Shown here piece after piece: positions 125 to 3,634 of a stretch of 30,916 bases of DNA. The notes below the pieces were generated by a model. The model did not search any database. It was not told where the DNA came from and saw only the letters and a list, made by a program, of their open reading frames with translations. Numbering within the stretch: the stretch's first letter is position 1; the number at the start of each line of letters is the position of its first letter. The stretch covers positions 1-30,916 of IMG/VR virus record IMGVR_UViG_3300025168_000394. The stretch is one strand, 5' to 3'. The position numbers were made by a program, and so were the translations under genes. The stretch is from a virus.

Positions 125-949
125 ATGTCATACATAGGAAGAAATATAAACAACCTCTCTGATAGAGTCAAACTTGATTCTATATCAACAAGTGCTACAG
201 CTACATTTAACCTATTATTAAATAGTGTTGCGTATGTACCTAGTAGTGCAGAGAGTTTAACAGTTAGTCTTAATGGTGTTATACAAGCACCTCAAAGTTC
301 TTACACAGTATCAGGAAGTACAATCATCTTTGCTAGTAACTTAGCTAGTTCAGATGTTATAGATTTTATATTAGCAGAAAGAGCAATCACATTATCAACG
401 ATAGGTTCTGGTACAGTCACAACATCTAATATAGTAGATGCTAATGTAACAACTGCTAAAATTGCAGACAACGCTGTAACAAGTGCAAAGTTAGCTAGTG
501 GATTATTACCCACTAATACTCCAGCATTTTTTGTTATTAAAACTGGAAACCAATCTGTAAGTGCTTCTACTTCTACTCTTGTAACATTCAATTCAGAAAA
601 ATTTGATTCAGATAATAAGTTTGATACATCAACAGGAAAGTTTACTCCAGCTAGTGCTGGTAAATATTTCTTACTAGCACAAATGAATATTCAAGCAATA
701 CACGATCAAGCAACAACAGAATTTGATATAAAGCAAAATGGTAGTTATGTTAATTCAAGATTTAAACACATAGCATTGAATAGTAGTTCTGATAGAGAGC
801 CAAGTATATTTACTTCTTGTATTGTAGATAGTGATGCTGATGATTATTTTCAAGTTTTTACGCACACAGATTTTGGTAGTGGTACAACTATTACGGGTGA
901 TGCAAATGGTTTCACATTCTTTGGTGGATATAAATTAATAGGAGCATAG
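125..949 (+). CDS. Tail fibre-like protein with C1q-like C-terminal domain
   Basis: A 274-residue protein, probably a receptor-binding or accessory tail fibre. The N-terminal ~90 residues are Ser/Thr-rich and beta-rich, with an SLNGVIQAP segment typical of fibre N-domains. Residues ~95-125 carry a fibre-shaft-like repeat (NIVDANVTTAKIADNAVTSA). The last ~140 residues (NTPAFFVIKTGNQ to FFGGYKL) look like a C1q/TNF-type jelly roll, which usually trimerises and sits at fibre tips. It starts three bases after the preceding stop and is followed one base after its own stop by a second gene with the same C-terminal domain. No cysteine-rich or enzymatic motif is seen. The structural role is inferred from composition, the C1q-like pattern and context. 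Confidence 0.75.
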   Translation: MSYIGRNINNLSDRVKLDSISTSATATFNLLLNSVAYVPSSAESLTVSLNGVIQAPQSSYTVSGSTIIFASNLASSDVIDFILAERAITLSTIGSGTVTTSNIVDANVTTAKIADNAVTSAKLASGLLPTNTPAFFVIKTGNQSVSASTSTLVTFNSEKFDSDNKFDTSTGKFTPASAGKYFLLAQMNIQAIHDQATTEFDIKQNGSYVNSRFKHIALNSSSDREPSIFTSCIVDSDADDYFQVFTHTDFGSGTTITGDANGFTFFGGYKLIGA

Positions 950-1454: not shown

Positions 1455-1784
1455 ATGGCACAACTATCAACTAAAATATCTTTGTATTGTCAGGCAAACT
1501 CTAAGACAGTTGACTTTACAAAAGATGTACTTCTTCAAGATGATTCAGATGGTAAGGGAGCATATATTAAAACTTGGAATGTTTCAGGTTTGGCTCAACC
1601 AACTGATGAACAACTAGCCTCTTACGAAACTGCTGGTAATACTGAAGAAGCTAACAATGTTGTCAGAGCTACAAGAAGAACAGCTTATGGTGATATTGGC
1701 GATCAGCTTGATGAGATCTATAAAGACATAGATGCTTGGAAAGTTAGAATTAAAGCAGTCAAAGACGCAAATCCAAAAGGTTAA
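1455..1784 (+). CDS. Small tail-associated protein with XkdW-like C-terminal helix
   Basis: A 109-residue protein preceded by a good ribosome site (AAAGGAAAAAC before ATG). The N-terminal half is a small beta-rich domain. Residues ~75-105 read YGDIGDQLDEIYKDIDAWKV followed by RIKAVKDANPKG. This C-terminal signature is widespread next to or inside phage tail fibre genes and resembles the XkdW / tail-fibre-assembly type. Together with the two fibre genes upstream this suggests a fibre assembly or accessory protein. The exact role is inference. Confidence 0.65.
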   Translation: MAQLSTKISLYCQANSKTVDFTKDVLLQDDSDGKGAYIKTWNVSGLAQPTDEQLASYETAGNTEEANNVVRATRRTAYGDIGDQLDEIYKDIDAWKVRIKAVKDANPKG

Positions 1785-1786
1785 TC

Positions 1787-1873
1787 ATGTGTGAATGTTG
1801 CGAAGGATATGAATGTATCTGTAAACAAAAATTAATATGTGGCTGTAATGGCGAATGTATTTGTGGTAAATGA
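1787..1873 (+). CDS. 28-residue cysteine-rich metallothionein-like miniprotein
   Basis: A micro-gene with an ATG two bases after the preceding stop and a ribosome site AAAAGG 7 bases upstream. Its TGA overlaps the next gene's start (AAATGA), so it sits in the operon like a normal coupled gene. Nine of 28 residues are cysteine, at positions 2, 4, 5, 10, 12, 18, 20, 24 and 26, giving one CxCC and three CxC clusters (ending CGCNGECICGK). That spacing is what metallothioneins use to bind Zn/Cd/Cu. No other residue pattern suggests an enzyme. I do not recognise a named family. Metal binding is inferred from cysteine spacing alone. Confidence 0.6.
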   Translation: MCECCEGYECICKQKLICGCNGECICGK

Positions 1874-2388
1874 AACTATTATTAACTATACTTTTTTTAT
1901 TTGGAACAGTTGCAGTTGTTACAGATGTTAGAGCAAATACCAACACGACAGTAAGCTCGACTGTAACAGGAACAACGACTGTAGATAAAGCACCTAGTAC
2001 AGCTAACGCACCGAATGTCATGATATCTAATCAAGATGTTTGTACTTCAGGTGGCTCAGTTGCTTTACAGACTCAAATATTTGGTTTTGCAAAAGGCTCT
2101 ACTATTACAGATATCACCTGTGAACGATTAAAATTATCTCGTGCCTTATATGGTATGGGAATGAAAGTTGCTGGTGTTTCAGTTCTTTGTCAAGATCCTC
2201 GTGTCTTTTCTGCTATGGAAATGGCAGGAACACCATGTCCTTATTTTGGAACTATAGGTGAGGTAGCACAAGCTGGTTGGGATTCACACAAAACCCAAAG
2301 ACCTGATTTTAAAAAGGAATCTAATGTTAAAAAATATATTGCTGGTAGCATTATTTTTGCTCTTACCACAGGCATATTCTTATTCTGA
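1870..2388 (+). CDS. Exported four-cysteine protein with C-terminal membrane segment
   Basis: A 172-residue protein of unknown function. Residues 1-22 form a signal peptide (MK, then LLLTILFLFGTVAVV, cleavage probably near VRA-N). A Thr/Ser-rich linker follows, then a compact domain at ~50-140 with four cysteines (VCTSGG, DITCERL, VLCQDP, PCPYFG). Residues ~155-172 are hydrophobic (YIAGSIIFALTTGIFLF). The product is therefore probably periplasmic and anchored by its C-terminus. It starts inside the stop of the cysteine-rich micro-gene. Its last 65 bases also encode the signal peptide of the next protein in another frame. It could be a spanin-like or superinfection-exclusion factor, but nothing in the sequence decides this. 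Confidence 0.7.
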   Translation: MKLLLTILFLFGTVAVVTDVRANTNTTVSSTVTGTTTVDKAPSTANAPNVMISNQDVCTSGGSVALQTQIFGFAKGSTITDITCERLKLSRALYGMGMKVAGVSVLCQDPRVFSAMEMAGTPCPYFGTIGEVAQAGWDSHKTQRPDFKKESNVKKYIAGSIIFALTTGIFLF

Positions 2389-3634
2389 AGAAACTTCTAA
2401 CTTAGTAACTCCTGCTGATGAATGGACTCAAAGTGGTGATGTAAGTACCACACAATGTTCTTATTCAGGCACACTAGAAGATGGTGAAGTCTGCACAGGA
2501 TCAGCTAATACTCGTGGTGTTGCTGATGGTGGAGGTACAATAACAAGTGATGTTTATAGTCTTATTACAGATGGTGGTCTTACCATTGACGAAATACAAC
2601 AAGGTTTTGATTTAAACTATGGCGTGACTGTTGAATCACATCAAAGTAATATTACTGTACCCACTTGTTCAGCGACTAATGGTGATTGTAAAGATATTTT
2701 TAAAATAACAGTTACTCTTAGAGATCAAGATAACACAGTATTTCAAACTTTAGAAAAAGAAGTAGAACTAGATTTTAGTGGTACACAAGATTATCTCTAC
2801 ACAGATATTATTCAACCTAACACTTATACTGACATAACTACACAGATGTCTTTGTGGGGTACTGATGCTGGATATACATCAGGTTATTATGGAGCAATTT
2901 TTAGTGATCCTACATTAACAGCTACCTACCAAATTGTTCAACAAGTAGAAGATGTAATAGATGGTATTATCAATGATGTTATTGATGATATTATAAACGA
3001 CTCTACTGATTTTGATATTATAGAAATAGACTTTGGTGATAACCTTGATCCTATAGAAATAGATATTCAAGAAATTATTATAGAACTTCCTGAACAAGAA
3101 GTTGAAATTGAAATGATTGCTGATCTCGATATGGAATTAGATATTCCTGAATTTGAAATGGAGATGGAAGCTGAAGTTGAAATAGAATTAGCTGAAGCTA
3201 TGGAAGAAGTTGCTGAAATGGAAATAGAAGTTGAACCTGAAATTGAAATAGAAGTAGAAAATGAACCTGAAGTTGAACCTGAAGTAGAAGAAACAGAAGA
3301 AGAAGTAGAAGAAACTCAAGAGTCTGAACCTGAACAAGAAGAAAAAGAAGTTAAGATTGTTAAACAAAAAGAAACTAAAGAACAAATTGCAAAAAAGATT
3401 TTAGCTAAAGTTGCAGATAGTGGTAACCAAGTTGCTCTTGATACAGTCAAGTTAGCTGTCATGGCACAATTAGCAGATACAAAAGGCTTTAACGAATACC
3501 AACAAACTACAATTACAGACATGGATATATCAGATTATAGAATGATGCAGATTGATGATTTGTATGGAGGTTTATTTGAGTCAGCACAAAATAACATGAT
3601 GAATGAAATGGTGAATCAACAATGGCAGAATTAA
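2324..3634 (+). CDS. Exported protein with long Glu-rich tail
   Basis: A 436-residue protein with a signal peptide (MLKNILLVALFLLLPQAYS). A beta-rich, cysteine-containing domain at ~25-205 follows. A strongly acidic tract at ~220-345 is made of alternating E/I/V/M/P units such as EVEIELAEAMEEVAEMEIEV. A mixed helical C-terminus at ~345-436 includes KEQIAKKILAKVADSGNQVA. The signal peptide and acidic repeats suggest a periplasmic or surface protein able to bind cations or act as an extended spacer. The start overlaps the upstream gene by 65 bases and the end overlaps the next gene by 13. I do not recognise a named family, and function is unknown. Confidence 0.75.
   Translation: MLKNILLVALFLLLPQAYSYSEETSNLVTPADEWTQSGDVSTTQCSYSGTLEDGEVCTGSANTRGVADGGGTITSDVYSLITDGGLTIDEIQQGFDLNYGVTVESHQSNITVPTCSATNGDCKDIFKITVTLRDQDNTVFQTLEKEVELDFSGTQDYLYTDIIQPNTYTDITTQMSLWGTDAGYTSGYYGAIFSDPTLTATYQIVQQVEDVIDGIINDVIDDIINDSTDFDIIEIDFGDNLDPIEIDIQEIIIELPEQEVEIEMIADLDMELDIPEFEMEMEAEVEIELAEAMEEVAEMEIEVEPEIEIEVENEPEVEPEVEETEEEVEETQESEPEQEEKEVKIVKQKETKEQIAKKILAKVADSGNQVALDTVKLAVMAQLADTKGFNEYQQTTITDMDISDYRMMQIDDLYGGLFESAQNNMMNEMVNQQWQN

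Follow-up and report, generated by a model that had tools for sequence, protein, structure and literature searches.

Cysteine-rich microgenes of ocean phages as candidate minimal metal-binding peptides

Metallothioneins are generally recognized as short chains with about 20% or more cysteine, CxC or CxxC spacing, few aromatic residues and a metal-thiolate cluster. Very short genes are known from two other systems: the bar minigenes of phage lambda consist of two codons and work through peptidyl-tRNA drop-off, and mycobacteria have cysteine-responsive polycysteine leader ORFs. Here we describe a 28-codon gene in a 30.9 kb IMG/VR viral record (the window) and the family of very short genes to which it belongs. 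Like the metallothioneins, including the bacterial SmtA/BmtA proteins (PF02069), the family is small and cysteine-rich, uses CxC and CxxC spacing and grows by modules and tandem copies; its modules, however, are far smaller (11-13 residues), they contain a conserved aromatic residue, their metal binding is predicted and they match no profile. The family shares extreme shortness with the bar minigenes, but consists of 11-28 codons rather than two and encodes a conserved peptide. As in mycobacteria, a very short cysteine-rich ORF lies beside a coupled gene, but here it sits in the middle of an operon, runs of adjacent cysteines are avoided, residues other than cysteine are conserved and no RNA structure was detected.

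Cultured pelagiphages provide one more comparison. In HTVC121P (gp52), HTVC105P (gp51) and HTVC021P (gp54), a protein of 39-40 residues ending in CKCKGKCKCK or CKCKDKGKCQCK is encoded directly before a phrog_20984-type gene. These proteins have in common with the microgene a cysteine-rich C-terminus and a stop/start overlap with the phrog_20984-type gene, but they begin with an amphipathic, helix-like stretch and have no detectable sequence homology to it. The tail is longer and Cys/His-rich in HTVC106P gp36, and contains only lysines in HTVC202P. We regard these proteins as analogues rather than established homologues. The 40-residue CKCKDKGKCQCK gene is unannotated in HTVC048P, while the identical protein is annotated in HTVC021P (Table 1).

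The microgene and its two modules

The peptide encoded by the microgene contains nine cysteines in 28 residues (32%), at positions 2, 4, 5, 10, 12, 18, 20, 24 and 26, which form the clusters CECC, CIC, CGC and CIC. Its ATG lies two bases past the stop of the upstream gene, and its own stop overlaps the start of the next gene. The first-pass annotation, made from the letters alone, had reported the nine clustered (CxCC/CxC) cysteines, the coupling to both neighbours and a ribosome site; the cysteines are exact in sequence and coordinates, and the stop and start positions and the AAAAGG run bear out the rest. In many relatives the equivalent position holds AAAGGAG. Among the 306 ORFs of 20-60 residues in the window this one has the highest cysteine fraction, and of 200 sequences simulated from the window by a first-order Markov model, 1 contained an equally cysteine-rich ORF.

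Table 1. Positions of the microgene, its neighbours and other small cysteine-rich genes
Feature	Record	Position	Strand	Description
XkdW-like upstream gene (PF09636, phrog_9114)	Window	1455..1784	+	Stop TAA at 1782-1784; commonest upstream neighbour class of the microgene
AAAAGG, Shine-Dalgarno-like run	Window	1775..1780	+	6 nt before the ATG, within the end of the upstream gene
Cys-rich microgene	Window	1787..1873	+	ATG start, 28 codons plus TGA (1871-1873); encodes MCECCEGYECICKQKLICGCNGECICGK
Module B, MCECCEGYECICK	Window	1787..1825	+	Free-standing 13-codon gene in other phages
Module A-like, ICGCNGECICGK	Window	1835..1870	+	Related to free-standing 12-codon MCEYCNGECVCR and 11-codon MCECGGECVCR / MCECNGECLCR
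Downstream coupled gene, phrog_20531 family	Window	1870..2388	+	Signal-like hydrophobic N-terminus, 4 Cys; neighbour, outside the system
Second downstream ORF	Window	2324-3634		Signal-like hydrophobic N-terminus, Glu-rich part
64-aa ORF	L429	4832-5026	+	Hydrophobic N-terminus, Cys-rich tail CEICVGECPCPETSCICKAEVCKCPKCIS
Cys/His-rich gene	L265	2112-2264		C..C..xCHCxDxH....CxC..C pattern
HTVC106P gp36	L449	251-448		Same Cys/His-rich pattern
40-aa CKCKDKGKCQCK gene	L447 (HTVC048P)	251-373		Unannotated

Two modules, A and B, are naturally fused in the window peptide. We scanned IMG/VR viral contigs with two degenerate DNA patterns in which the cysteines were fixed. Free-standing 12-codon module A genes, MCE[FYLH]C[NG]GEC[VIL]C[RK], were found in at least 119 stretches, and 13-codon module B genes, MC[EK]C[CN]E[GDE]Y[DE]C[IVM]CK (representative: MCECCEGYDCICK), in at least 57. 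The cysteine-requiring 12-mer pattern had 0 matches in 257 Gb of prokaryotic genomes, which also bounds its occurrence by chance. The module A pattern did not demand a stop after C-x-C-R/K, and a stop follows directly, at codon 13, in 51 of 52 distinct sequences; residue 12 itself is R or K, reached through seven different codons. Of 33 distinct module B sequences, 21 end in a stop, and the rest enter fusions or overlapping second microgenes.

The modules, 11-13 residues each, can stand alone as genes, overlap in tandem or be fused in frame. An identical copy of the window 28-mer is present in L005/L241, and near-identical fusions of the same type in L214 and L234, while L089 and L074 contain different fusions. 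A scan that did not require ATG gave, among the matches listed, longer N-termini such as MCTCCEHCNGECICR. No relative of the microgene turned up among cultured phages, either by tblastn or in blastn searches with the DNA of the 12- and 13-codon genes. The microgene is a member of a strongly conserved and apparently undescribed family of tiny ocean-phage genes of 11-28 codons, or up to about 50 in a wider class.

Selection and cysteine spacing

Because cysteine conservation is forced in the pattern-based sets, evidence for it comes only from a relaxed scan and from sets collected through neighbouring genes. The relaxed scan left the four cysteine codons and codons 4, 6 and 10 free, and kept E3, G7, E8, the G in codon 12 and TAATG. 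All four cysteines were retained in 78 of 80 stretches (27 distinct DNA sequences); the other two were unrelated to the family, one of them having an internal stop. Over the free codons of the 27 distinct family sequences, the NG86 method gave pS of 0.72 and pN of 0.087, or pN/pS of 0.12, a pairwise estimate on short related sequences rather than a codon-model fit; at the four cysteine codons, pN was 0 and pS 0.41. Judged by these substitution counts, the peptide is under strong purifying selection. Two outcomes that the first-pass annotation had set against its own claim, a lack of conserved cysteines and a dN/dS near 1, were looked for and neither was seen, and the relaxed scan and pN/pS uphold the claim of a conserved cysteine-rich phage micropeptide gene with metallothionein-like spacing. 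Outside the cysteines, the free positions of the 12-mer admit F/Y (rarely L/H), N/G, V/I/L and R/K only, while E3, G7 and E8 appear conserved in part because the search patterns demanded them.

We measured cysteine spacing in 20 family representatives, which were chosen by us and are not fully independent, by shuffling residues within the cysteine span. CxC was observed 42 times against 21.7 expected (0 of 5,000 shuffles), CxxC was weakly enriched (24 against 16.8; 206 of 5,000 shuffles), and CC was seen 5 times against 28 expected. The enrichment of CxC together with the avoidance of CC is better explained by metal-thiolate geometry than by a simple demand for cysteine codons, as supporting rather than decisive evidence.

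Measured against the general description of metallothioneins, both the 28-mer with its nine cysteines and the 12-mer with its four are short chains well supplied with cysteine, and CxC/CxxC spacing exceeds chance, mainly through CxC. The scarcity of aromatic residues is not reproduced: F/Y is conserved at residue 4 of the 12-mer, and Y8 of the 13-mer is likewise aromatic, but fixed by the search pattern. To our knowledge, 12 residues with one four-cysteine site would lie below any known metallothionein. Pfam and NCBIfam profiles, which are weak for chains this short, gave no metallothionein or zinc-family match. The best PDB matches, to spider knottin toxins (mu-agatoxin; E 0.12 and 0.59), reflected cysteine composition only and were rejected. 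A literature search, with preprints and most subscription journals outside its coverage, found nothing relevant on phage metallothioneins.

Genomic settings and neighbouring genes

To see the site independently of its cysteines, we used loci related by the XkdW-like upstream gene, with no cysteine requirement. A cysteine-rich microgene occupies the same spot in 17 of the 80 (L005, L006, L007, L008, L009, L010, L020, L023, L025, L038, L045, L055, L059, L064, L065, L074 and L077). Its forms there are the identical 28-mer, a related 28-mer (MCKCNEDYDCICKGKTMCEYCGGECICR), the 12-mers MCEYCNGECVCR and MCEFCNGECVCK, the 11-mer MCECGGECVCR, and an 18-mer overlapping a 12-mer. Most of the other loci have a tail-fibre-like gene directly past the stop, and in a few the contig ends there or no microgene is present.

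Across its carriers, the microgene adjoins at least 12 upstream and at least 9 downstream gene families, among them tail-fibre-assembly, endolysin, terminase small subunit, phrog_20531 and phrog_20984. The settings are late gene runs (tail, connector, endolysin-adjacent) joined by stop/start coupling, with distances of +2, +3 or -1 on one side and -1 or -4 on the other. The frame relative to the upstream gene differs among relatives, which rules out readthrough of that gene. Of the 26 carrier records, 13 have T7-type portals and 5 SU10-type portals (3 of these distant), none has an HK97-type portal, and the remainder are fragments or unassigned. Because neighbour families vary and portals are unrelated, the microgene behaves as a cassette, not as part of a pair with the exported proteins, and it appears to move between unrelated phage genomes. 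A second copy of module A was found in none of the 26 records, and total binding capacity may be small, given one copy per genome.

The first-pass annotation had also placed the microgene before two exported proteins. Both are present (Table 1), with signal-like hydrophobic N-termini, four cysteines in the first and a Glu-rich part in the second. A functional tie to them finds no support, because the same microgene precedes at least 9 different downstream families and the exported-protein family occurs without it in cultured HTVC115P. The window itself encodes an SU10-type portal and major capsid protein. Its terminase is closest to cultured Pelagibacter phages (about 50% identity) and its portal to that of Pelagibacter phage HTVC106P (44%), which makes SAR11-type bacteria its likely hosts.

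Other cysteine-rich microgenes were found without any cysteine pattern, through relatives of the phrog_20984 gene: the same site holds MINPCCEDGKCTCGK, MINPKCDCELNKEDCDCQ, MINPNCPVCGCDKDKCTCDDFCESCGA and MIKPCETCGADVCSCDEECDSCGA, as well as forms of 42-44 residues. When viral contigs were scanned for the C-terminal motif D[DE]C[DE]SCG[AS]-stop, many more cysteine-rich microgenes of 24-33 residues came to light, along with unrelated NrdA-like tails that we set aside. In prokaryotic genomes, this motif occurs only in two Bacteroidota records, with longer NrdA-like tails. Eleven pairs of tandem microgenes overlap. These short families may or may not descend from the same ancestor as modules A and B.

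Several further small genes were noted along the way. In three records (L250, L367 and L372), MINPCCEDGKCTCGK and a 33-residue cysteine-rich ORF share 26 nt read in different frames, and these bases encode parts of both peptides. Six others (L384, L387, L354, L381, L389 and L396) encode viral proteins of about 36-43 residues, apparently free-standing, that end in CNIxNPD[DE]C[DE][ST]CGS and resemble the redox tail of the ribonucleotide reductase NrdA. A Cys/His-rich group (L265, L266, L263 and HTVC106P gp36) lies near the same lysis-adjacent site, with one member in a cultured pelagiphage. The 64-residue ORF of L429 sits between two DUF1501-like genes in a 39.6 kb viral contig and possibly encodes a membrane-anchored metal-binding peptide.

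Probable metal binding and its alternatives

The microgene peptides, judged from their composition and spacing, probably bind metal. In our best single guess, to which we assign a probability of about 0.5, the microgene encodes a minimal metallothionein-like peptide that serves late in infection as a metal buffer or carrier. The peptides would be made together with the late proteins and would hold soft metal ions (Zn2+, Cu+ or Fe2+) through their 4-9 cysteines, buffering or carrying metal that is released or needed at that stage. In the fused 28-residue peptide of the window, each module would hold one ion, about two in all. Tandem and fused modules are expected if binding capacity is what is selected. 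We also count in favour of metal binding the other cysteine-rich sequences at the same site, which were found through neighbours, and the cysteine-rich tails that precede the same downstream family in pelagiphages.

The main rival, which we consider unlikely, is that the cysteines hold a single Zn2+ (or an Fe-S cluster) purely for folding, and that E3, the aromatic residue 4, G7, E8 and R/K12 form the contact with a particular protein of host or phage, such as a polymerase, a protease or a defence factor. The constraint on the free non-cysteine positions and the chain length fixed by a stop fit such an effector, and the same 12-mer in phages with unrelated portals is what a shared host target would produce. 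Simple metal buffering would need neither the conserved aromatic nor the terminal R/K, and their presence hints at a more specific partner. However, the search patterns prescribed E3, G7 and E8, whose conservation is therefore not independent evidence, and the fusions and other cysteine-rich sequences at the same site suggest that cysteine content matters more than sequence detail.

A cysteine-sensing or coupling element is less likely, and we consider it improbable. Here the minicistron would act in cis, coupling translation of its neighbours or, like the mycobacterial polycysteine leaders, slowing ribosomes when charged Cys-tRNA is short, in hosts that lack assimilatory sulfate reduction (PMC5069961). 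Such a role would agree with the tight coupling of start and stop on both sides, the density of cysteine codons, and the dependence on organic sulfur of SAR11, on which the nearest cultured phages grow. The microgene lies, however, in the middle of a gene run with 2-3 nt spacers rather than in a leader position, consecutive cysteine codons are avoided, R/K12 is kept at the amino-acid level, and the neighbours differ between genomes. Five microgene regions, when folded, were no more stable than shuffled sequence (z from -1.0 to +2.2) and Rfam gave no match, and an RNA element was rejected.

More doubtful still is a reading in which thiols rather than metal do the work, in a redox or disulfide peptide or in a minor component of the virion. 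The peptide's cysteine content, its site among tail and exported-protein genes and the NrdA-like CxxC redox tail of some related viral small proteins are compatible with this role. Against it, so short a chain leaves no room for a signal peptide, the microgene adjoins not only tail genes but also connector and endolysin genes, and CxC is a poor spacing for dithiol redox chemistry. Finally, although 12-28 codons fall below most annotation cut-offs, a chance ORF or sequencing artefact has a negligible probability and is already refuted by the conservation data, because modules A and B occur in at least 119 and at least 57 viral stretches, respectively, with purifying selection, a fixed stop and no 12-mer in 257 Gb of prokaryotic genomes; the ORF is near certain to be a genuine phage microgene.

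Returning to minimal metal-binding peptides, we tentatively propose, at slightly under even odds, that they are encoded by an undescribed class of phage genes of 11-28 codons (up to about 50 in the wider class). Unrelated ocean phages would exchange these genes as cassettes, and in infected SAR11-type hosts the peptides would serve as metal-folded effectors or as metal carriers. Genes of 12 codons are usually ignored by annotation, and here they are strongly selected in many marine phages. Should the peptides bind metal, they would rank with the smallest known metal sites encoded by genes, and would suggest that ocean phages manage the metal pools of their hosts at the least possible coding cost.
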